This document shows, in pieces, positions 386 to 48,032 of a DNA stretch of 64,000 nt; the stretch's first letter is position 1; every line of letters starts with the position of its first letter. The notes beneath the pieces are model-generated. The model saw only the letters and a list, made by a program, of their open reading frames with translations, searched no databases and was not told the origin of the DNA. Origin of the DNA: Pedobacter puniceum (GTDB lineage: Bacteria; Bacteroidota; Bacteroidia; Sphingobacteriales; Sphingobacteriaceae); assembly GCF_009674685.1 (NCBI RefSeq), contig NZ_WKJI01000001.1:1178001-1242000 (forward strand), in the 5' to 3' direction. Made by a program: the position numbers and the translations under genes.

Positions 386-1747
386 TTAACCTATGCTAAA
401 TAGTTGTTTTTCTAATTTAGTAGCTCGTAAGCGGGCATCAAAAACTGCACATACATTACGCAGAAAGCGTTTACCTGTTTTGGTAACTTTTATAGACTGA
501 TGCTCTTGAATGATTAAACCATCTTCTACCAACTCTGGTAATCCTAATAAATTTTCTCTAAAAGCATCATTTTGCAAATCATCATCGCTCCAAGTGGTTA
601 CACCTTTACACATGATGTTTAAAATATGCCTCCTAATTAATAAATCCTCATTATTTAAGACGTGTCCTTTAACCACAGGTAATTCTCCGGCATTTATTAA
701 AGCTAAATACTCTTCTTCACTTTTTACATTCTGTGCAAAGGCATCCCAAGTATCGCCAATAGAAGAAACACCTAAACCAACCAATAAACGAGTGTATTGA
801 TGGGTATAACCCATAAAATTACGGTGTAGCTTTTTGTTTTGTGCAGCTATATTTAGGCTATCATGAGCAAAAGCAAAATGATCCATACCGATATCTAAAT
901 AACCAGCAGCTAAAAGCATTTCTCTGCCTTTTTCGTACAATTCTTGTCTTAAATGGGTATCAGGCAAATCGGCCTCGGTAAACTTACGCTGACCAGATTT
1001 TACCCAAGGCACATGAGCATAGCTATAAAACGCTATTCTATCAGGCTTTAAGCCGATAACTTTTTCTACCGTAGCAGTAAGACTGGCAACAGTTTGTAAT
1101 GGCAAACCATAAATTAAATCGAAATTTACTGAAGTATAACCAATTGCTCTGGCTTGTTTACTCACTACATCTACCTCTTCTACAGATTGTATTCTGTTAA
1201 TCATGATTTGAACTTGCTCATCAAAATCTTGAATACCTAAACTTAATCTTTTAAAACCTAAAGCATATAATACTTCAAGATGTGCTAAAGTGGTATTTGC
1301 CGGATGCGCTTCAAAACTAAATTCTGCATCTTCATGAATTAAACAATCTTCTAAAATACCTTTGATTAAAAGCGCTAGATTTTCTGGAGAGAAAAATGTT
1401 GGCGTACCACCGCCTAAATGTATTTCTTTTAACTGAGGTTGAGCACCAAAAACAGCTTTATACAATTTCCACTCCTTTATAACAGCTTTTAAATATGGTT
1501 CTTCTACCCCATGGTTTTTAGTAATACGTTTATTGCAGGCACAATAAGTACACAAACTTTCACAATAAGGTAAATGGATATAAACACTTATACCATCTTT
1601 ATGATTACTGATATCAAAAGATTGCTTTACTTTTTGCAACCATAAAGATTTGTTAAAAGTACTTTCATCCCAAAACGGAACAGTAGGATAACTGGTATAC
1701 CTAGGTACAGGTACCGTATATTTTGTAATGATATCTTGCGTAAGCAT
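386..1747 (-). CDS. hemN: Oxygen-independent coproporphyrinogen III dehydrogenase (radical SAM)
   Basis: Converts coproporphyrinogen III to protoporphyrinogen IX without O2, in haem synthesis. The protein (453 aa, normal HemN length) has PRYTSYPTVPFW near the N-terminus and the radical-SAM cysteines in YCESLCTYCACNKR (C62, C66, C69 plus C71), followed by LGGGTPTF. I chose ATG 1747 (MLTQDII) over an upstream alternative because it aligns with the family start and lies 1 nt after the stop of the dehydrogenase gene, so the two are probably one operon. Its position downstream of an Fnr-type box fits a gene used when oxygen is low. Confidence 0.95.
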   Translation of the reverse strand: MLTQDIITKYTVPVPRYTSYPTVPFWDESTFNKSLWLQKVKQSFDISNHKDGISVYIHLPYCESLCTYCACNKRITKNHGVEEPYLKAVIKEWKLYKAVFGAQPQLKEIHLGGGTPTFFSPENLALLIKGILEDCLIHEDAEFSFEAHPANTTLAHLEVLYALGFKRLSLGIQDFDEQVQIMINRIQSVEEVDVVSKQARAIGYTSVNFDLIYGLPLQTVASLTATVEKVIGLKPDRIAFYSYAHVPWVKSGQRKFTEADLPDTHLRQELYEKGREMLLAAGYLDIGMDHFAFAHDSLNIAAQNKKLHRNFMGYTHQYTRLLVGLGVSSIGDTWDAFAQNVKSEEEYLALINAGELPVVKGHVLNNEDLLIRRHILNIMCKGVTTWSDDDLQNDAFRENLLGLPELVEDGLIIQEHQSIKVTKTGKRFLRNVCAVFDARLRATKLEKQLFSIG

Positions 1748-1748
1748 A

Positions 1749-2786
1749 TTATGATTGATGAGGTAGCAATGGTTTTTCTTTGATAGCTTCTTTTTGGCAG
1801 TTTTTAGCACAGGCACAAGCTTTACCTACACACTTATTTTCTTGCCAAAGGTCTAAGCTTTTTATGGTAAGCTGCGTTATTTCTTGCAAAACCTCTGTAG
1901 TTAAAAAAGCTTGATGTGGTGTGATAATAACATTAGGAAAAGCTAATAACTGTTGTAATAAACAATCTTTTTCTTTGTCTTGATGATGATTTTCAAAAAA
2001 TAAACCATGCTCATATTCATAAACATCGGCACCTAAAGCACCAATTTTACCAGATTTAAGTGCTTGTAAAACATCATTAGTATTTAACAAACCTCCTCTG
2101 CCTGTATTGATAAGCATCACCCCAGGTCTCATCTTGGCTAAATTCTCTGCATTAATAATATGTCTGGTTTCATCATTTAAAGGAACATGTAAAGAAATAA
2201 TATCTGATTTAGCATAAAGCTCTTCTAAACCAACATGTTGTATTCCTGTATGTTGATGTTTTACTTGGTCATAAGCCAAAACTTTACAGCCAAACCCATT
2301 AAATATTTTTGCGGTAATTAGACCAATTTCGCCTAAACCTATTATACCCACAGTTTTACCATACAAAGTAAAACCTACTAACCCATCTAGCCTAAAATCA
2401 AAGTTTTTACTTCTTTGTGTTGATAATAAAATTTTACGATTTAAAGCCAAAACAAGTGTTAAAACGTGTTCTGCTATGCTATGTGGAGAGTAAGACGGTA
2501 TATTGGCTATTTTAATGTTGGCTGCTGCAGCGGCTTGCTTATCAATATGATCTGTACCTACAGAACGTGTGGCAATGTATTTAACGCCATAATGAGCCAG
2601 CTTTTTTATAACTGATGCCGAGACATCGTCACTTGTAAAAACTACAACAGCATCTTTACCCTCTGCATATGATGTAGTTTCATCAGTCAGAGGATTAGAT
2701 ATTAAAGTAATATCATGCTTTTTTTGATTGGCCTTTGCCAGCAATTCCTTCTCAAAAGACCTCGTACTGTAAACTACAACTTTCAT
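1749..2786 (-). CDS. D-lactate dehydrogenase-type 2-hydroxyacid dehydrogenase with Cys-rich tail
   Basis: NAD-dependent D-2-hydroxyacid dehydrogenase, probably D-lactate dehydrogenase (pyruvate to D-lactate). It has the Rossmann motif GKTVGIIGLGEIGLITAK, the substrate-binding Arg in LINTGRGGLLN and the catalytic His in ITPHQAFLT. The start MKVVVYSTRSFEKELL (ATG 2786) fits the family; a TTG six codons upstream is less likely. An unusual tail, CVGKACACAKNCQKEA, carries four cysteines beyond the usual fold. It is probably co-transcribed with hemN. A TAGCTTTG -7 element (2806-2813) and an Fnr-type palindrome (2858-2871) lie upstream. Confidence 0.88.
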   Translation of the reverse strand: MKVVVYSTRSFEKELLAKANQKKHDITLISNPLTDETTSYAEGKDAVVVFTSDDVSASVIKKLAHYGVKYIATRSVGTDHIDKQAAAAANIKIANIPSYSPHSIAEHVLTLVLALNRKILLSTQRSKNFDFRLDGLVGFTLYGKTVGIIGLGEIGLITAKIFNGFGCKVLAYDQVKHQHTGIQHVGLEELYAKSDIISLHVPLNDETRHIINAENLAKMRPGVMLINTGRGGLLNTNDVLQALKSGKIGALGADVYEYEHGLFFENHHQDKEKDCLLQQLLAFPNVIITPHQAFLTTEVLQEITQLTIKSLDLWQENKCVGKACACAKNCQKEAIKEKPLLPHQS

Positions 2787-2805
2787 TTGCTTCGCTTTAT
2801 ACAAG

Positions 2806-2813
2806 CAAAGCTA
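2806..2813 (-). promoter_or_regulatory. Candidate -7 promoter element of the ldh-hemN operon
   Basis: The minus strand reads TAGCTTTG, an exact match to the Bacteroidota -7 consensus TAnnTTTG, about 20 nt before the ATG at 2786. The Fnr-type palindrome upstream is centred about 55 nt from the centre of this element, which places it near -62 relative to the predicted start site. Confidence 0.5.
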
Positions 2814-2857
2814 CCAGCTATATTCTTATTGTAACATGAGGCTAGTCAGCAAGAAAA

Positions 2858-2871
2858 GTGATTAAAATCAA
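2858..2871. promoter_or_regulatory. Fnr/Crp-type operator upstream of ldh-hemN
   Basis: GTGAT-TAAA-ATCAA on the plus strand (TTGAT-TTTA-ATCAC on the minus strand) matches the Fnr box TTGAT-N4-ATCAA at 9 of 10 defined positions. It overlaps the stop codon of the upstream regulator gene. Its centre is about 62 nt upstream of the start site predicted from the -7 element, a class I activator position. The match and spacing are seen in the sequence; function is inferred. Confidence 0.55.
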
Positions 2872-3917
2872 TTTTTCATGTTTTTTAATCGGTTCACATC
2901 TAAGATATGTATCTCACCACCTTTTTTCTCAATCAGTTTCTCTTCTTTAAAATCACTTAGTGTACGACTCACCGTTTCTGTTGCCATGCCGGCCATTGCG
3001 GCTAAATCATCTCTAGAAATTTTAAAAACATCTTGGTTTTTATTTACTTCTCTAATACGCATTAATGTTTCTGCCAAACGCTTCCTAACAGAATGATAAG
3101 CTAATTGAACCAACTGCTCTTCCTTTTGATGAATGTGGGCAGAAAGTAATTGGATAAACTGCATAGCAACCGCTGTATTATTATTTAACAGCGCATTAAC
3201 TTGGTCTTTGTGAAGCATACAGATGCTACTATTTTCCATAGCCTCTGCCGTTTCTGTATGCAATTGACTTATCAAAGCATCATGCACACCAAAATATTCA
3301 TCAGTATGGTAAATTCCTGTCAAAAGTTCTCTACCATCTTCACTCAACTTAACGGTTTTAATTTTACCCTCCAGAACTAAATAAATACCTTGTGCATGGT
3401 CTTGGTCGTAATAAATAATCTGACCCTTTTTAACCTGTCTTATTTTCTTTTGCGAGATTAATGATTTTAAGTCTTGCTTATCTTCTACTTGTAAGGCAAA
3501 GTCTTCTAGATTTTTTAATCCCTTAGTGTAAAACTCTTCTTGTTTTTGCTTTTTATTAAGCCTACTTTCTATGGCATTTAAAAGCTCCATATCGTCAAAA
3601 GGCTTAATCAGATAATCATCTGCACCCATCTCCATTCCTTTACGCATATCTGCTCTTTCTGCCTTAGCGGTTAAGAAAATAAAAGGAATATTAGCCGTTT
3701 CCGGATTTTTATTTAGTAAATACAAAACGCCATAACCATCAAGTTCTGGCATCATGATATCACAAATAATTAAATCTGGAAGATACTTCTGAGCCTTATC
3801 AGCCCCAAGTTTACCATTAACAGCAGTTTCTACTTCGTAACCAGCCAAACCTAAAATTTCAGCTGTACCTTCTCTAATATCCTCGTTATCTTCTATAATC
3901 AGGATTTTCTTTTTCAT
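2868..3917 (-). CDS. Response regulator receiver fused to Crp/Fnr-family DNA-binding regulator
   Basis: 349-aa transcription regulator with three parts. A CheY-like receiver (about 4-120) has phosphoacceptor Asp53 in LIICDIMMPELDG and a conserved Lys in LIKPFDD. A cNMP-binding-like beta-barrel follows (about 145-255), then a Crp-type winged helix (about 270-345). The recognition helix ATETVSRTLSDF keeps the E..SR pattern that lets Fnr read TGAT half-sites. It lacks Fnr's N-terminal cysteine cluster, so oxygen sensing through its own Fe-S cluster is unlikely; the signal probably comes by phosphorylation from the kinase encoded 1 nt upstream. The arrangement looks like rhizobial FixJ and FixK in one chain. 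Confidence 0.9.
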   Translation of the reverse strand: MKKKILIIEDNEDIREGTAEILGLAGYEVETAVNGKLGADKAQKYLPDLIICDIMMPELDGYGVLYLLNKNPETANIPFIFLTAKAERADMRKGMEMGADDYLIKPFDDMELLNAIESRLNKKQKQEEFYTKGLKNLEDFALQVEDKQDLKSLISQKKIRQVKKGQIIYYDQDHAQGIYLVLEGKIKTVKLSEDGRELLTGIYHTDEYFGVHDALISQLHTETAEAMENSSICMLHKDQVNALLNNNTAVAMQFIQLLSAHIHQKEEQLVQLAYHSVRKRLAETLMRIREVNKNQDVFKISRDDLAAMAGMATETVSRTLSDFKEEKLIEKKGGEIHILDVNRLKNMKN

Positions 3918-3918
3918 A

Positions 3919-5103
3919 CTAAAGATTAAAAATCAGGGTAAATTTAGCGCCTTTATTTTCCGAACTCTCAAACTCCACTTCACCATTCATGAGTTTAATA
4001 TAACGATTAACAATATTTAATCCTAAACCTGTGCCAGGGATACTCCCCGTATTGTTGGCTCTAAAGAAAGGTTCAAATAAATGTTTTTGATCATTTACAG
4101 GTATTCCAATACCATCATCCTTAATGATAACCATACAGCGTTTCTCATCAAGCTCGGTATTAAACTCTATAAAAGTGTTCTCACCAGAGTATTTAATGGC
4201 ATTAGCAATAAGGTTAATGATACAATTTTTCAATAATGCGGCATCTAAAGTAACCAAACTACTTTTTCCGGTATGTTGATAAATGATATTTTGGTTTTGC
4301 TTGGCTATCAATTGCATTTCTTCGGTAATTTCTTCTGCCAGCTTCACCAAATCAAATGGTGCCGCTTGTGGATTAATTTTACCTGCCTCTAGCCTTTCTA
4401 AGGATAAGAAATCATTTAGAATGTTAGTGAGGTTGCCCACACCAACTTTTATTTTGCCTACATGTTTAGCAATATTAGGATTTTGATACTCTTGAGCATA
4501 CTTTTCTATTAACGATGCAGAGAGTTGTATAGAACTTAACGGCGTTCTAAACTCATGCGAAGCCATAGAAACAAAACGACTTTTCAGTTGGTTAAGTTCT
4601 TTTTCTTTTTCAAGGGATAAACTTACCTCTTCTTTTGCATCTTGTAACTGCGCTACAATTGATTGTAAAGCTTGTGTACGCTCTTCAACCAAATGCTCTA
4701 ATCTTGATGTATATTTTTTTAGCTGCTCTTCGGCGTCCTTTTCTCTGCTTAAATCATGTATGAAACCGGTATATACTATCCTACCTTCATACTGTACCTT
4801 ACTTACCGCAAGCCTAAATGGAAATTCGCTTTTATCTTTTCTTAACCCCGTAACCTCTCTTCCAATACCGATAATGTGTGCTTCGCCAGTTTGATGGTAA
4901 CGATGAATATAAGCATCATGCTGAGACCTGTATGGTTCTGGCATTAAAACCGAAATATTCTTTCCTACAACCTCTTCAACCTCATAACCAAAGAGTTCAC
5001 ACGCAGAAGGGTTTATGGCTTCTATAATTCCCTTCGTATCAATCGTGATGATACCATCTATGGCATTATTAATAATTGCTTCAAGTAAAGCCTCTTTATC
5101 CAT
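3919..5103 (-). CDS. PAS sensor histidine kinase with FixL-like heme-pocket residues
   Basis: 394-aa sensor kinase without clear membrane segments, so probably cytosolic. An N-terminal PAS domain (about 5-118) is followed by a coiled coil (120-175), HisKA with His183 in SHEFRTP, and HATPase with NLIANAIKYSG, DDGIGIP and GTGLGLNIV. The PAS stretch MPEPYRSQHDAYIHRY...HIIGIGR closely resembles FixL. His62, Arg68, His76, Ile77 and Arg82 correspond by constant offset to B. japonicum FixL His200 (heme ligand), Arg206, His214, Ile215 and Arg220. Heme binding and O2 sensing are therefore plausible but inferred. It is probably co-transcribed with the regulator 1 nt downstream and perhaps the CoA-transferase upstream. 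Confidence 0.88.
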   Translation of the reverse strand: MDKEALLEAIINNAIDGIITIDTKGIIEAINPSACELFGYEVEEVVGKNISVLMPEPYRSQHDAYIHRYHQTGEAHIIGIGREVTGLRKDKSEFPFRLAVSKVQYEGRIVYTGFIHDLSREKDAEEQLKKYTSRLEHLVEERTQALQSIVAQLQDAKEEVSLSLEKEKELNQLKSRFVSMASHEFRTPLSSIQLSASLIEKYAQEYQNPNIAKHVGKIKVGVGNLTNILNDFLSLERLEAGKINPQAAPFDLVKLAEEITEEMQLIAKQNQNIIYQHTGKSSLVTLDAALLKNCIINLIANAIKYSGENTFIEFNTELDEKRCMVIIKDDGIGIPVNDQKHLFEPFFRANNTGSIPGTGLGLNIVNRYIKLMNGEVEFESSENKGAKFTLIFNL

Positions 5104-5151: not shown

Positions 5152-6426
5152 TTATTTATATCGCTCATCAAATGCTTTCTCTAAAGCTTCTCTATGGTCT
5201 GGATGCGCTATCTCAATTAAAGCTCTCCCTCTTTGTTTTAAGCTTTTTCCGTATAAGTTTACAATACCATATTCAGTTACCACCCATTGTACGTGTCCTC
5301 TAGTGGTTACCACACCTGCACCTTCTTTTAAAAATGGAACAATTCTGGAGATACCTTTATTGGTTGTTGATGGCAAAGCAATAATAGGTTTACCACCTTG
5401 AGATAAAGATGCACCTCTGATGAAATCCATTTGGCCACCGATACCAGAGAATTGGTATGTTCCGATAGAATCTGCACAAACCTGACCTGTTAAATCTATT
5501 TCTATAGCACTATTAATAGCTATTACTTTAGGATTTTGGCGAATCACACTTGTATCATTCACGTAATTGATATTCATTACCCTTACGGATGTATTATCAT
5601 CAACAAAATCATATAATTTTCTGGTACCCACCATAAAAGAAGTCACATTTTTGCCTCTATTAAGCTTCTTCATGCTATTATCAATCACACCGCTTTCTAT
5701 TAATGGAATTACACCATCAGAAAGCATTTCTGTGTGCAGACCTAGATTTTTATGGTTTACTAAATTTTTCAAAACTTGGTCTGGTATACTTCCAATTCCT
5801 AATTGTAAGGTAGAGCCATCCTCTATCAAAGAAGCTACATTTTTACCAATTTGCACCACCACATCGCTAGCTTTTGCAGAGTAATCCACCTCTGGTAACT
5901 CGGCCTTTTGCCAAACCAAAGCGTTTATTTTATTAACATGGATAAATCCATCTCCGTGTGTTCTTGGCATAAAAGGATTAACCTGAGCGATGACATATTT
6001 CGCATTTTCTATAGCTGCTCTGGCAATATCTACTGATGTACCTAAAGAACAATAACCGTGTTTATCTGGTACAGATACATGAATTATAGCAACATCAATA
6101 GGTAAATAGTTTTCGTTAAAAAGAATAGGAATCTCACTTAAAAATACTGGAACATAATCTCCAAACTGGCTATTAGCCACAGCTCTTGAATTTGCAGAAA
6201 CAAATAAGGAATTAAAAAAAAAGCTATCCCTGTATTTTTCATCATTAAAATTAACATCTCCTAAAGTGGTAATACTTACCAACTCAACATTTTTTAGCTC
6301 CTCATATCTATGTTGTAAAGCTTTTATAATGTGTACAGGTGTGGCAGCACTTCCGTGTAAAAACACCCTATCTCCTGATTTTACTGCTTTTACCGCCTCT
6401 GCGGCACTTATATAATTAACATCCAT
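5152..6426 (-). CDS. Acetyl-CoA hydrolase / acetate-type CoA-transferase
   Basis: 424-aa member of the acetyl-CoA hydrolase/4-hydroxybutyrate CoA-transferase family, moving CoA between short acyl acids (for example succinyl-CoA and acetate). Family signatures seen are LQLGIGSIPDQVL, LHTEMLSDG, the SGIGGQMDFIRGA loop and the C-terminal VVTEYGIVNLYGKSLKQR. ATG 6426 (MDVNYISAAEAVKAV) is preferred; a TTG seven codons upstream is possible. It heads a minus-strand run with the PAS kinase 48 bp downstream. An Fnr-type palindrome lies about 41 nt upstream of the predicted start site, suggesting a role in fermentative acetate formation at low oxygen. The exact substrate is not resolved. Confidence 0.87.
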   Translation of the reverse strand: MDVNYISAAEAVKAVKSGDRVFLHGSAATPVHIIKALQHRYEELKNVELVSITTLGDVNFNDEKYRDSFFFNSLFVSANSRAVANSQFGDYVPVFLSEIPILFNENYLPIDVAIIHVSVPDKHGYCSLGTSVDIARAAIENAKYVIAQVNPFMPRTHGDGFIHVNKINALVWQKAELPEVDYSAKASDVVVQIGKNVASLIEDGSTLQLGIGSIPDQVLKNLVNHKNLGLHTEMLSDGVIPLIESGVIDNSMKKLNRGKNVTSFMVGTRKLYDFVDDNTSVRVMNINYVNDTSVIRQNPKVIAINSAIEIDLTGQVCADSIGTYQFSGIGGQMDFIRGASLSQGGKPIIALPSTTNKGISRIVPFLKEGAGVVTTRGHVQWVVTEYGIVNLYGKSLKQRGRALIEIAHPDHREALEKAFDERYK

Positions 6427-6474
6427 CTTGTTTATTTTTTTGCTCAAAATAGCTGCATTTTAAGCCTCTAAAAA

Positions 6475-6488
6475 ATGACAATCGTCAT
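6475..6488. promoter_or_regulatory. Fnr/Crp-type palindrome upstream of the CoA-transferase
   Basis: ATGAC-AATC-GTCAT has fully complementary 5-nt half-sites around a 4-nt spacer. Its centre lies 33.5 nt from the centre of a TATTTTG element on the minus strand (6445-6451), which puts it near -41, the class II activator position. The half-site is TGAC rather than TGAT, so affinity for the same regulator is uncertain. Confidence 0.45.
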
Positions 6489-6538: not shown

Positions 6539-6550
6539 TGATTTACATCA
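6539..6550. promoter_or_regulatory. Fnr-type operator upstream of the 596-aa gene
   Basis: TGAT-TTAC-ATCA is the core of the Fnr box. Its centre is 33.5 nt from the centre of a TATTTCG element on the plus strand (6575-6581), the same distance as in the divergent CoA-transferase promoter, placing it near -41. The start codon of the downstream gene is at 6600. Confidence 0.5.
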
Positions 6551-6599: not shown

Positions 6600-8390
6600 A
6601 TGAGTCATACATTTCATATTCCTGTTTTAGGTTTAGCATATTCTGTTGATACACCACTAAAAGTAGGCCGTTATGGTATTTCTTCTGTAGCATCTATTGT
6701 TGATGATAATCTGATAGAAAGAATGCGAGCATACCATGCAACACAAAATCAGGAAAATTATACTCCAATAGGTGATAAAGAGCCCAATTTTAGAGCTAAG
6801 AGAATTACTGCATATTTAAACCTCATGCAAGACTTGCTTGATAAGCAATTTGAGGCTTTAAAACAACAAGTGTTTGAGCCAGGTACAGATTTAACTAGAT
6901 ATTTTGAATTACAACCAGACCACTCTGTCCTTAAAAAAACCTATTTACAAATGCTTAATATTCAAGATGATGATTTAAAAGCGATTGTACAAAGGCAATT
7001 AAAAGAAAAAATGCATAAAGGAGCCATAGATGTAAATATTATGGCTAAAGTAGATAAACTAAATAACCCTATAAATGGAGAAGAGCAATTAAGTGATGCG
7101 CTGGCTTCTTTACAAGGCTTTGCTCAAAGTAAGTTAAATGCTGGTGTAGTCTTATCTGCCGGGATGAACCCAAGATTATATGCTCATCTAGAGAATTTTA
7201 AGGATTTTTATCCTGATGAACATCAAAAGCTTCAAAAAACTATCATTTTAAAAGTATCTGATTTTAGGTCAGCACTGATACAAGCTAAATTCTTAGCTAA
7301 AAAAGGTTTATGGGTATCAGAATTTAGGATAGAATCTGGATTAAATTGTGGCGGGCATGCTTTTGCTACTGACGGTTATTTATTAGGCCCAATTTTAGAA
7401 GAATTTAAGGTAAAAAGACAAGAAATGCTTGCCGAGCTTTCTGCCATGTACAAAAATGCTCTCATTGCAAAAGGTTATACTGGCGATATAGAAATACCAC
7501 GAATGAAAATTAGTGTACAAGGTGGTATAGGTACAGCAGAAGAAGACAGTTTTTTATTAAAGCATTATGAGTTAGATGCAACGGGCTGGGGAAGTCCGTT
7601 TTTATTGGTTCCCGAAGCCACCAATGTTGATGAAGAAACCTTAAACAATTTAGCAGAAGCTACCAAAGAAGATTTCTACATCAGCGGCTCATCGCCTTTG
7701 GGTGTTCCTTTTAATAACTTTAGAAAAACCACAGCAGAAAAACTCCGTTTAGAGCGTATTGCGAAAGGAAAACCAGGCAGCCCTTGTACAAAAAAATACT
7801 TAGTTTCTAATACCGAGTTTACAAAAGAGCCTATTTGTACAGCCTCTAGAAAATATCAAAACTTAAAAATAAAATCACTCCAAAACAGTGATTTAAGCGA
7901 GCAAGAGTTACAAGCTAAAATAAACGAAGTAACAGAAAAAATTTGCCTTTGCGAGGGCTTGGTAACTTCTGCTTATCTTAAAAATGACATGATAAAACCT
8001 AAAGAAAATAAGGCTGTTACCATTTGTCCAGGTCCAAACATCGCTTATTTTTCTGGTAAGTTTTCTTTAGATGAAATGGTAAAACATATTTACGGCAAAA
8101 TTAACTTACTGGCTGGTATAGAGCGTTCTAACATTTTTATCAACGAGCTTAATTTATATATAGAACATCTTAAAAAAGATATCAGCATGAGTTGGCAAGA
8201 TTTATCTGATAAAAAGGTTAAATATTACACCAAGTTTAGAGAGCAGTTAGAACAAGGCATTAATTATTATAAACAACTAATCCCTGAAATTCAAAACCAA
8301 ACGGATGTATATAAAAACAAGATGCTTAAGGAGTTACAAGAAGCAGAAGAAAGACTTAAAATGATGATTTTCTCAACAGAAAATGCATGA
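6600..8390 (+). CDS. Conserved protein of unknown function, possible TIM-barrel/Fe-S protein
   Basis: 596 aa; I do not recognise the family with certainty. The middle has glycine-rich barrel-like motifs (ESGLNCGGHAFATDGY, VQGGIGTAEEDSF, TGWGSPFLLVPEATN) reminiscent of flavin-dependent TIM barrels. The last third carries cysteines in SPCTKKY (about 396), PICTASRKY (about 413), KICLCEG (about 449 and 451) and TICPGPN (about 476), which could hold an Fe-S cluster or metal. The C-terminus is helical. There is no signal peptide. Divergent from the CoA-transferase and preceded by an Fnr-type box, it is probably used at low oxygen. I considered anaerobic ribonucleotide reductase and rejected it. Confidence 0.75.
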   Translation: MSHTFHIPVLGLAYSVDTPLKVGRYGISSVASIVDDNLIERMRAYHATQNQENYTPIGDKEPNFRAKRITAYLNLMQDLLDKQFEALKQQVFEPGTDLTRYFELQPDHSVLKKTYLQMLNIQDDDLKAIVQRQLKEKMHKGAIDVNIMAKVDKLNNPINGEEQLSDALASLQGFAQSKLNAGVVLSAGMNPRLYAHLENFKDFYPDEHQKLQKTIILKVSDFRSALIQAKFLAKKGLWVSEFRIESGLNCGGHAFATDGYLLGPILEEFKVKRQEMLAELSAMYKNALIAKGYTGDIEIPRMKISVQGGIGTAEEDSFLLKHYELDATGWGSPFLLVPEATNVDEETLNNLAEATKEDFYISGSSPLGVPFNNFRKTTAEKLRLERIAKGKPGSPCTKKYLVSNTEFTKEPICTASRKYQNLKIKSLQNSDLSEQELQAKINEVTEKICLCEGLVTSAYLKNDMIKPKENKAVTICPGPNIAYFSGKFSLDEMVKHIYGKINLLAGIERSNIFINELNLYIEHLKKDISMSWQDLSDKKVKYYTKFREQLEQGINYYKQLIPEIQNQTDVYKNKMLKELQEAEERLKMMIFSTENA

Positions 8391-45676: not shown

Positions 45677-46090
45677 ATGACAAAAATTAATTTCACTGAA
45701 CTCTTCGTGAGTTCAAACTCCGAAAAAGCAGTAGACACTGCTAAACCATCATTGTTTAATGATGAGAATCCAAATGGATACTTTAGTAGAGAAGAATTAG
45801 CAAATCACCTGCTATCTTTAAAAAGGGACAGGAAAAAACAATGGCAAATCCATCATTTGGATTTACTATTTAAATTCTTCAAATCAAAAGGAACCTTAAC
45901 AAGGTTTCCACAACACACTATTGAAGACGGTGAAGATGTGACGTGGATTTCCATTAGAATTGGGAAAGTGGTGAAACCTGTTAAAATCATTCACTTTAGT
46001 GGAATGAAGCAATTGATCGATGATTATGCTTCTGGCGTGATCAAAATCAATCAAACATTGGAAGAGCTTTGTGACGAGGCTAATTCCTAA
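45677..46090 (+). CDS. Small element protein of unknown function
   Basis: 137 aa. The middle has a basic helix (LLSLKRDRKKQWQIHHLDLLF) followed by a strand-rich part with ISIRIGKVVKPVKIIHFSG. Could be a DNA-binding or replication accessory protein, but there is no clear helix-turn-helix. It lies upstream of the helicase-like gene and is separated from it by a terminator at 46099-46126. Confidence 0.55.
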   Translation: MTKINFTELFVSSNSEKAVDTAKPSLFNDENPNGYFSREELANHLLSLKRDRKKQWQIHHLDLLFKFFKSKGTLTRFPQHTIEDGEDVTWISIRIGKVVKPVKIIHFSGMKQLIDDYASGVIKINQTLEELCDEANS

Positions 46091-46199: not shown

Positions 46200-48032
46200 A
46201 TGAAAAAGAAAACCATCAAGATAAAGACAGATCAATATCTGTCTGACATCATCGATTTTATAGAGAATAAAACTATTTATGAAAAGCCTACTGGAGCCGG
46301 GATTACCAGAATGGAACTAAAAGCAAAAAGACATAGCTTAATTATAGAAGCTAATAGACCAGTTATTCAAGGCAAGTGCTCGCAATTTAACGGTAGAGAC
46401 AGAAGAAACTTGTTGATTAGAGGCGTATATGAAGGAATTACAGTTTCGGATATTGTTTCTTATTTAGAATCAGACGTGAAATACAAAAAGATAATTACCA
46501 CTCCTGAAAGCTATCCTAAAGTGATTACTGCATTTAGTCAGCTAGGAATTTTGGATGAATTAATTAACGATTACTTTATGCTATTCGATGAATGTGAGAA
46601 GACAATACAAGATATAGATTATAGGGATGATATCATACTTCCAATGAATGACTTTTTTAAGTTTAAAAACAAAGCATTTGTTTCGGCAACTCCTATTATA
46701 CCATCTGATCCAAGATTCGAACAGCAAAAATTTAAATATGTACTGATTAAGCCTGTTAAAATAATAAAGCAACCAGTAAATTTAATCACTACCAACAATG
46801 TGTTTTTAAGTTTCCAAAAGTATCTTCAGCATTCAAATGAAGAGCAATATTTTATTTTCCTGAATTCTACAAAAGCTATAGTAGCTCTAATAGAATACTT
46901 AAGCATAAAGGATGAATCAATGATATTTTGTTCGGATGAAAGCAAGGGTAAATTAGCCTTAAATAAATACAAGAATGTAAAGACTTTAATGGATGAGTCA
47001 GCTTTTAGGAAATTTAACTTCTTTACATCCAGATTTAATTCAGCAGTGGATATTTTAGGTATCACCAAGCCTAATATTATAGTTATTACTGATTGTTATA
47101 TCGCAGAACATACAAAAGTTGATCCCAACAGCGAAGTTATACAAATGATAGGTAGGTTTAGAAAACCTGAGAAGGGAACAATAGAACGAAAGTTAACGCA
47201 TATTGCAAATTTAAATCCTGATCTGGGATATGATACAGAAGAAGTGATTGTTAAGGACATCAATGAAATGAAAGTAATTCATAGTTACTTAGTTGCTTTT
47301 CACGACGCAGTTACCTCACACATTGCAAAGAAAATTACTCGAGAACTGTTGGAAAAAACTCTTTTTTCTAAGTATCTAAATAAGGACGGTAGTATAAATC
47401 ATTACATGATAGATAATGCATTGTTTAGTAATAAGGTAAATGGATATTATAGAAGTGAGGATTACTTATACAATGCTTATGAAGAAAGCAAGAAATATAT
47501 TATCAAGAAGAACAACGAAAATTTTGTTATTACTGATGAACAGAAACGCATAATAAATTCATCATTAGATAGGTTGAAAACCGCTTTAGAATTATTAATT
47601 CCAATCTTAACGAATTTGGTGGAAAGAGGATTAGAAGATGCAGAAGTGCTTTTAGAGCTTAAAATGATTGAAAAAGAACATCCAACAACCTATAAAACGA
47701 TAAAGGCAGTTGGAATCGAAAGAGTTGTTGAATTAAAAGATGTTTTAAGCATTCAAAAAGAAGCTGCTGAAATTAAAAGTCGTGAAGGTGTTGAGCATTT
47801 TGGTCTTATGGAATATCTTAAAAATAATATATATGTTGGATCTGGTTATACCATGAAACAGATAACATCAATTTTGAAAAGAGGTATAAATGAATTTAAA
47901 TTATCTCGTCTTAAACCTAACATGGAACTTTTAAAGCAGTATTTCGATATTTCTGATCGAATATACCTGAACAGCAAAGCCGGAAAGAAAATATATGGCT
48001 ATAAAATACATAAGAGTAAATTCAACTTATAG
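46200..48032 (+). CDS. SF2 helicase-like protein with altered P-loop
   Basis: 610 aa. An N-terminal helicase-like fold has EKPTGAGITRMELKAKRHSLIIEANRPV (P-loop position PTGAGIT, lacking the usual GKT Lys), DECE in YFMLFDECEKT, SAT in AFVSATPII and QMIGRFRKP as motif VI. A C-terminal helical part (about 360-610) follows. Similar proteins with a Gly-rich, Lys-less loop are common in Bacteroidota mobile elements (from memory). It may start or support element replication, or act as an ATP-independent remnant. The protein is long and uninterrupted, so the P-loop change is not simple decay. Confidence 0.65.
   Translation: MKKKTIKIKTDQYLSDIIDFIENKTIYEKPTGAGITRMELKAKRHSLIIEANRPVIQGKCSQFNGRDRRNLLIRGVYEGITVSDIVSYLESDVKYKKIITTPESYPKVITAFSQLGILDELINDYFMLFDECEKTIQDIDYRDDIILPMNDFFKFKNKAFVSATPIIPSDPRFEQQKFKYVLIKPVKIIKQPVNLITTNNVFLSFQKYLQHSNEEQYFIFLNSTKAIVALIEYLSIKDESMIFCSDESKGKLALNKYKNVKTLMDESAFRKFNFFTSRFNSAVDILGITKPNIIVITDCYIAEHTKVDPNSEVIQMIGRFRKPEKGTIERKLTHIANLNPDLGYDTEEVIVKDINEMKVIHSYLVAFHDAVTSHIAKKITRELLEKTLFSKYLNKDGSINHYMIDNALFSNKVNGYYRSEDYLYNAYEESKKYIIKKNNENFVITDEQKRIINSSLDRLKTALELLIPILTNLVERGLEDAEVLLELKMIEKEHPTTYKTIKAVGIERVVELKDVLSIQKEAAEIKSREGVEHFGLMEYLKNNIYVGSGYTMKQITSILKRGINEFKLSRLKPNMELLKQYFDISDRIYLNSKAGKKIYGYKIHKSKFNL

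Follow-up and report, generated by a model that had tools for sequence, protein, structure and literature searches.

In the rhizobial FixL-FixJ-FixK system, FixJ carries a LuxR/GerE output domain. The signal of rhizobial FixL passes via FixJ and FixK, and that of hFixL via FxkR and FixK (PMC7888657). FixL and the phosphodiesterase DosP share one PAS cluster with an F-alpha histidine, according to the survey PMC10468136. Here we describe a locus of Pedobacter puniceum in which a PAS histidine kinase is encoded beside a regulator that joins a receiver with a Crp/Fnr-type DNA-binding domain. It lies in a stretch of 64,000 nucleotides (nt) of contig NZ_WKJI01000001.1 (positions 1,178,001 to 1,242,000, forward strand), hereafter the window. 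We consider it probable that the two proteins work as an O2 switch, made of a heme-PAS kinase and a receiver-Crp activator, on the cbb3 oxidase genes, on ldhA-hemN, on their own unit and on the gene of a 596-amino-acid (596-aa) protein. The architecture, the linkage, the boxes and the promoter positions described below are established by comparison of related sequences.

A kinase and a receiver-Crp regulator encoded as one unit

The two genes are located as follows (positions are those of the window):

2868 to 3917, minus strand: receiver-Crp/Fnr fusion regulator (Pfam: receiver, cNMP-binding fold, HTH_Crp_2)
3919 to 5103, minus strand: PAS histidine kinase with a FixL-type PAS domain, probably soluble, predicted phospho-acceptor H183 (Pfam)

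A gap of 1 nt (base 3918) separates them, and the coordinates given in the initial annotation of this DNA, made by a model from the sequence alone, are exact. The regulator contains the Pfam domains Response_reg (residues 5-117), cNMP_binding (160-247) and HTH_Crp_2 (279-346), all over their cut-offs. Its recognition helix reads ETVSR (E..SR) and its only cysteines are C52 and C233, with no iron-sulphur (Fe-S) cysteine set; the CheY-type receiver joined to a Crp/Fnr domain with an E..SR helix and without Fe-S cysteines, as annotated, is thus borne out. A scan for relatives of the regulator gave at least 570 pattern matches, the best 80 of which were kept as a set of 80 loci. The receiver residues E9, D10, D53, T83 and K105 are identical in all 81 regulators of this set and the window.

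A kinase gene lies upstream of the fusion in 79 of the 80 loci, with gaps of -79 to 280 nt by the ends of the open reading frames (ORFs). When 29 further loci are added, a kinase-like ORF is found at -160 to +320 nt upstream in 107 of 109, a total in which some loci stand for the same contig. In this search for kinase and receiver-Crp neighbours, of the kind that the initial annotation had proposed, kinase and fusion are one conserved unit. Two loci are irregular: in a close relative (L009, positions 2549-3732; genome G013, regulator 99% identical) the kinase appears as two ORFs, through a frameshift or a sequencing error, and in a Mucilaginibacter-type metagenome-assembled genome (L060) the regulator is present with no kinase match at E 1e-10 in the locus.

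The fusion (E ≤ 1e-50) was found in 24 of 158 sampled genomes of the phylum, all 24 inside the 39 genomes of the window's class. The initial annotation had attributed it to a merger of FixJ and FixK made by this one organism. The second part of this claim is not supported, given the presence of the fusion in 24 of the 39 class genomes and a tree of 82 Crp domains, in which 42 fusions stand on one side of one branch (support 95/96; 94% of bootstrap trees). The tree sample comprises 27 of the 80 fusions, picked by hand, 15 fusions from other genomes and 40 standalone proteins, all chosen by similarity to the window regulator, and by this tree the receiver-Crp fusion has an apparent single origin.

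A literal FixJ and FixK ancestry is not supported either. The receiver scores best against PhoB-type models, with PleD among the first five and also as the best solved structure. The FixK model NF050806 gives 75 bits against a cut-off of 300 and the Fnr model NF008365 80.6 against 228, and by Pfam the regulator has no LuxR/GerE output domain of FixJ type, its C-terminus being made of cNMP_binding and HTH_Crp_2. A literal fusion of a rhizobial-type FixJ with FixK, gained by transfer, would account for the functional parallel and the fix-gene surroundings. However, the PhoB-type receiver, the scores far below cut-off and the grouping of fusions of several lineages on the Crp tree, which was built without alphaproteobacterial FixJ or FixK, leave such an origin unsupported and highly improbable.

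The kinase is composed of PAS, HisKA and HATPase_c domains, each over its Pfam cut-off. It is probably cytosolic, because it has no strongly hydrophobic segment (the largest 19-residue mean hydropathy is 1.51). Residues 4-129 were aligned by phmmer to the B. japonicum FixL chain without gaps and at a constant offset of 138, and HRHIR is read at positions H62, R68, H76, I77 and R82 in both proteins. In the pocket numbering of B. japonicum FixL used in the initial annotation these are His200, Arg206, His214, Ile215 and Arg220, so that R82 corresponds to R220; all five pocket residues are therefore present at one constant offset, as first annotated. The likeness goes beyond chance. Among the sequences of solved structures, the best 13 matches of the PAS domain are FixL (seven, E ≤ 4.8e-30, down to 1e-31) and DosP/YddU (six, E ≤ 2.1e-17, DosP about 1e-18). 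The next match is a multi-sensor kinase at 7.2e-10, and the remainder stand at 6e-4 or worse.

A FixL-like PAS domain, assigned by overall alignment score (at least 357 in 66 kinases, at most 221 in the other 13), is present in 66 of the 79 upstream kinases of the 80-locus set. H62, I77 and R82 are kept in all 66, and all five residues in 14. Position 68 is R in 33, N in 24, H in five and K in four of these kinases, and position 76 is H in 30, R in 20, K in 10, N in five and S in one. The five residues were therefore ruled out as one heme signature, since R68 and H76 vary among orthologs. H62 alone was ruled out as well: His is aligned there in 11 of the 13 dissimilar PAS domains, of which four have Arg at 82 and none has I77 and R82 together.

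The rhizobial FixL equivalog of NCBIfam, NF041777, gives 167.4 bits against a cut-off of 850, its best stretch covering profile positions 121-477 of 485. The kinase has the features of a FixL-type protein, namely a PAS domain nearest to FixL with an F-alpha proximal His and a distal Arg, and a transmitter of HisKA and HATPase_c. H62 is the predicted proximal heme ligand, and the kinase is a probable heme-based oxygen sensor. Alternatively, the PAS domain could sense another ligand or a redox state instead of O2 via heme, the kinase being FixL-like in sequence only. The variation of R68 and H76 among orthologs, the presence of His62 in most dissimilar PAS domains and the coupling of different sensors to the same regulator in other lineages are all consistent with this, and a different cofactor is reported for part of the FixL cluster (PMC10468136). 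Nonetheless, we judge it quite unlikely, as every one of the best structural relatives is a heme O2 sensor and the unit is linked to hemN and a cbb3 oxidase (see below).

Regulators paired with dissimilar-PAS kinases with no I77/R82 are found at loci L074, L075, L083, L092, L101, L102, L106, L111, L113, L114 and L116. Since regulators of other lineages have such partners, the sensors seem exchangeable.

Neighbouring genes and a palindrome at activator positions

The neighbours of the unit in the window are the following:

1749 to 2804, minus strand: ldhA, D-lactate dehydrogenase-like 2-hydroxyacid dehydrogenase (probable start ATG at 2786)
386 to 1816, minus strand: hemN, oxygen-independent coproporphyrinogen III oxidase (TIGR00538 equivalog, 424.9 bits against a cut-off of 324.95)
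5152 to 6447, minus strand: acetyl-coenzyme A (CoA) hydrolase/CoA-transferase family protein (Pfam; under the cut-offs of specific NCBIfam models)
6600 to 8390, plus strand: divergently oriented gene of a 596-aa protein without a known family (no Pfam or NCBIfam match at the thresholds used)

The minus strand thus reads CoA-transferase family gene, PAS kinase, receiver-Crp regulator, ldhA-like gene and hemN, with the 596-aa gene opposite and the CoA-transferase-family gene 48 nt ahead of the kinase gene. The fermentation and haem genes of the initial annotation are indeed there, ldhA and hemN on the same strand as the pair. In the same genome, ccoNO and a FixI-like ATPase gene lie about 39 kb away from the kinase-regulator operon.

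Across the 80 loci, the neighbours include ldhA (56 loci), hemN (55), the 596-aa family (52), ccoNO (44), the FixI-like ATPase (28), ccoG (25), ccoH (24), ccoP (23) and a universal stress protein (15), and any cco-type gene is found within the locus (flanks up to 6 kb) in 54. Identities were taken from one representative per cluster, with CcoN/CcoO in one protein and CcoG identified by NCBIfam, and FixH and FixP_N by Pfam. The FixI-like ATPase is a heavy-metal P-type ATPase just below the subfamily cut-off and owes its label to its position. Among 121 genomes of the family, 93 have both the fusion and ccoNO, five the fusion only, five ccoNO only and 18 neither (odds ratio 67; Fisher p 7e-13, which overstates the evidence as the genomes are related). 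At the class level the link is weak, ccoNO being present in 21 of 24 fusion-bearing and 12 of 15 fusion-lacking genomes.

An unbiased scan for all palindromes with 5-base arms and spacers of 2-9 bases covered 141,708 bases of intergenic DNA from the 80 loci. AGTGA-N6-TCACT came first and ATGAT-N4-ATCAT fourth. The motif TGAN6TCA, hereafter the box, has 250 intergenic sites in these loci against a mean of 44.7 in resampled sequence. It lies at most 350 nt upstream of ldhA in 42 of 56 cases, of the kinase gene in 28 of 79, of ccoNO in 21 of 44 and of the universal stress protein gene in 11 of 15, and is rare ahead of hemN (2 of 55) and of the FixI-like ATPase (1 of 28); a box between two divergent genes was scored for both. 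The 596-aa family, with a box upstream in 49 of its 52 loci, is the most regular of the families counted.

Boxes are often paired. A spacing of 22 bp was observed 27 times, 23 bp five times and 44 bp six times. The number of 22-bp pairs expected is 0.02 on average (50 resamplings), and eight control palindromes gave zero pairs at 21-23 or 43-45 bp. The 27 pairs stem from 20 loci, several of which are closely related. Seven gene families supplied 335 promoters, and a box is present in 156 of these. From the gene-nearest box we measured the distance to TAnnTTTG, the consensus of the Bacteroidota -7 element, and of 103 distances below 90 nt, 37 are exactly 29 nt and 47 exactly 51 nt. If the -7 element is placed as in Bacteroides, these distances correspond to about -41, where Crp activators of class II bind, and about -62, where those of class I bind. 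Their difference, 22 bp, is the same as the spacing of the box pairs. The ldhA promoter of the window shows the whole arrangement of two boxes and a perfect -7 element:

2859 to 2870, minus strand: box 1, TGATTTTAATCA, centred 51 nt ahead of the -7 element
2837 to 2848, minus strand: box 2, TGACTAGCCTCA, shifted downstream from box 1 by exactly 22 bp and centred 29 nt ahead of the -7 element
2806 to 2813, minus strand: -7 element, TAGCTTTG, perfect match to TAnnTTTG

At ccoNO of the same genome, a GTGA/TCAC box stands 51 nt from a one-mismatch -7 element. The shared boxes suggest that the pair turns on genes of low-oxygen respiration, heme synthesis and fermentation in many related species. 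Two more boxes lie between the divergent genes of the window:

6476 to 6487, minus strand: TGAN6TCA box in the CoA-transferase/596-aa intergenic region
6539 to 6550, plus strand: box TGATTTACATCA upstream of the 596-aa gene

The anaerobox TTGAT-N4-ATCAA was set aside as the operator on its weak genome-wide enrichment (with at most one mismatch, 540 forward matches, compared with 407 for the motif reversed as a control). Boxes related to it, TGAY-N4-RTCA with another outer base, are what the loci show, and the window has 15 one-mismatch anaeroboxes where 6.9 are expected. Elsewhere in the window, a TGATCAAAATCA palindrome (46038-46049) is found about 150 nt ahead of a 610-aa ORF (46200-48032, plus strand) with no Pfam match at E 1e-6.

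The sequence of the 596-aa protein has no convincing match among solved structures. Six cysteines (C250, C396, C413, C449, C451 and C476) are invariant in 26 aligned relatives. The predicted fold (mean predicted local distance difference test score 78) has a weak likeness to FabK and nitroalkane oxidase, and no function is assigned to the protein, since even its best structure-library matches are weak (FabK, E 1.1e-5 to 5.9e-5; query-normalised template modelling score 0.26-0.30).

Which protein reads the box

The ccoNO promoters were compared in 20 fusion-bearing genomes of the class besides the window's, in 10 of the 12 fusion-lacking ones (lower-scoring copies of G052 and G134 omitted) and in 10 genomes of other classes, taken from the highest-scoring rows. 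The box is present upstream of ccoNO in all 20 fusion-bearing genomes (29 sites, 3.2 expected) and in two of the 10 genomes of other classes (two sites, 1.7 expected).

Several observations weigh against the proposed switch. Nine of the 10 fusion-lacking class genomes have the ccoNO box too (12 sites, 1.8 expected), and Crp/Fnr paralogs therefore probably read similar sites. The window genome has one other Crp/Fnr match (E ≤ 1e-10), at C2:399078. For the boxes at 6476 and 6539, neither strand offers a -7 element (at most one mismatch) 28-30 or 50-52 nt away, and ccoNO is missing in five of the 98 fusion-bearing genomes of the family. In addition, 13 of the 79 upstream kinases are without a FixL-like PAS domain, so that the module can do without heme. 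The genomes sampled are moreover related and do not count as independent. The presence of a box was dropped as evidence for the fusion, since fusion-lacking class genomes have it as well and only its type and position separate the groups.

The second Crp/Fnr protein of the window genome (L215, G000:C2:399078-399668) has a cysteine-rich N-terminus and the helix ETVFR, and is encoded on another contig than ccoNO.

The boxes could thus belong mainly to a separate Crp/Fnr protein, with the fusion acting on few genes or competing for the same sites. The boxes of fusion-lacking genomes and the further Crp/Fnr match of the window genome speak for this, and so do the five family genomes with ccoNO and no fusion, four of which encode a standalone Fnr-like protein no more than about 4 kb from ccoNO, while the fifth has it on a separate contig. 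Across the class, ccoNO has an Fnr-like standalone protein with N-terminal cysteines of CxxC type at a distance of up to about 6 kb in seven of the 10 fusion-lacking genomes, and likewise in the four scanned fusion-bearing genomes of one other family. In contrast, no standalone Crp/Fnr match occurs within 100 kb of ccoNO on its contig in the eight genomes of the window's family with an E..SR fusion that were scanned, all outside genus g5 (G000, G013, G138, G161, G200, G204, G205 and G224).

The boxes themselves also differ between the groups. Of the 50 class promoters, 13 belong to other families and were set aside, which leaves 37 for this comparison; the contrast is descriptive, as the groups were set after the data had been seen. 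In the Fnr-type group (21 ccoNO promoters) the outer base, never G, is A on 40 of the 42 arms and C on the other two. The box lies at about -227 to -329 from the start of the ccoNO match, and wherever a -7 element was found (16 cases) it is 29-30 nt away. In the group with an E..SR fusion (16 family promoters, the helix being confirmed in all 16 genomes) 20 of the 32 arms carry an outer G, nine an A and three a C. Here the box lies at about -74 to -101, and wherever a -7 element was found (seven cases) the distance is 51-52 nt. Over the promoter-positioned sites of the 80 loci, L117 (E..VR) omitted, an outer G is present in 99 of 242 arms where the helix has S against 6 of 76 where it has I. 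This agreement is not proof, because helix residue and lineage go together. In genus g5 (two genomes), I-type fusions occur with A-type boxes, and helix and box agree; in G229 of this genus, the Fnr beside ccoNO could explain the A-type box equally.

The differences in outer base and position, the lack of a nearby standalone protein in the eight genomes and the agreement of box G-content with the fusion helix, even if confounded with lineage, make a separate Crp/Fnr as the main reader of the boxes unlikely. We infer that the fusion, and not a paralog, fills these boxes, with activation at low O2, a direction drawn from the targets and from the behaviour of FixL. In fusion-lacking relatives, the presence of a cysteine-bearing Fnr beside ccoNO together with a different half-site and a different promoter position of the box suggests a regulator swap. 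A fuller history can be put forward only tentatively. In this family, the heme kinase and the fusion may have taken the cbb3 promoter from an Fe-S Fnr, with loss of the ccoNO-adjacent Fnr, a change of the outer operator base together with the helix residue (I to S) and a move of the site from class II to class I, the receiver allowing two dimers 22 bp apart on one DNA face to bridge the class I and class II contacts. We give this history as a whole somewhat less than an even chance.

The proposed switch and described systems

In the proposed switch, the cytosolic heme-PAS histidine kinase would sense O2. When O2 drops, it would autophosphorylate at H183 and then phosphorylate D53 of the regulator by a presumed phosphotransfer. 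The phosphorylated regulator would bind TGAY-N4-RTCA at positions of class I and of class II, in many cases with two dimers spaced by 22 bp. Its binding would activate ldhA-hemN, the 596-aa gene, the unit of CoA-transferase, kinase and regulator, and the genes for the cbb3 oxidase and for the assembly of this enzyme. The steps of FixJ and FixK would take place in one protein with no transcriptional relay, since by its architecture the system has no FixK-making step. The one-step route from O2 to transcription claimed in the initial annotation agrees with the conserved unit, with a PAS domain nearest to heme O2 sensors and with conserved boxes at activator positions that tie the unit to the cbb3 oxidase, hemN and ldhA; what is not supported is the literal merger of FixJ with FixK.

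If the proposed switch is real, the regulator would be the first of Crp/Fnr type known to us to be switched through the phosphorylation of a receiver fused to it. In the literature we did not find a receiver-Crp O2 regulator of Bacteroidota, although such fusions may stand in regulator classifications; the main text of a survey of receiver proteins (PMC4558063) has no mention of Crp, cNMP or cyclic nucleotide. The parts are of known kinds, and we found no paper on a receiver-controlled Crp, the apparent single origin, the 22-bp pairs or the apparent Fnr exchange. Should the proposal be right, a phylum for which we found little on the O2 control of respiration would have a shortened version of the best-known bacterial O2 relay, and the ccoNO promoters would be a natural experiment on a core respiratory promoter passing between O2 sensors.

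Among described systems, the heme-PAS phosphodiesterase DosP is a relative of the PAS domain (E about 1e-18), but its output is a cyclic diguanylate phosphodiesterase (PMC4263535) and not a histidine kinase. The Fe-S regulators Fnr and FnrN share with the fusion the Crp/Fnr fold, an E..(S/I)R recognition helix and low-O2 targets; they have a cysteine set, whereas the fusion has none and carries a receiver. More generally, FixK and Fnr are without an N-terminal receiver and are controlled by expression or by an Fe-S cluster. The hFixL-FxkR-FixK system of Rhizobium leguminosarum resembles the present one in its FixL-type kinase, a regulator other than FixJ and Fnr-like control of fixNOQP, but there the two parts are distinct proteins, FxkR and FixK, the first of which induces the gene of the second (PMC7888657). 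Similar in outline is the rhizobial FixL-FixJ-FixK system, with a heme-PAS-type kinase, a two-component relay and a DNA-binding end of Crp/Fnr type, and a fix set comparable to the predicted targets and neighbours found here, that is, the cbb3 oxidase (fixNOP, fixGH and a FixI-like ATPase) and hemN. The box of the present system, TGAY-N4-RTCA with G or A in front and often doubled at 22 bp, differs from the rhizobial FixK box TTGAT-N4-ATCAA, and the receiver and the Crp/Fnr domain are fused in one protein, with no LuxR/GerE domain and no transcriptional relay.

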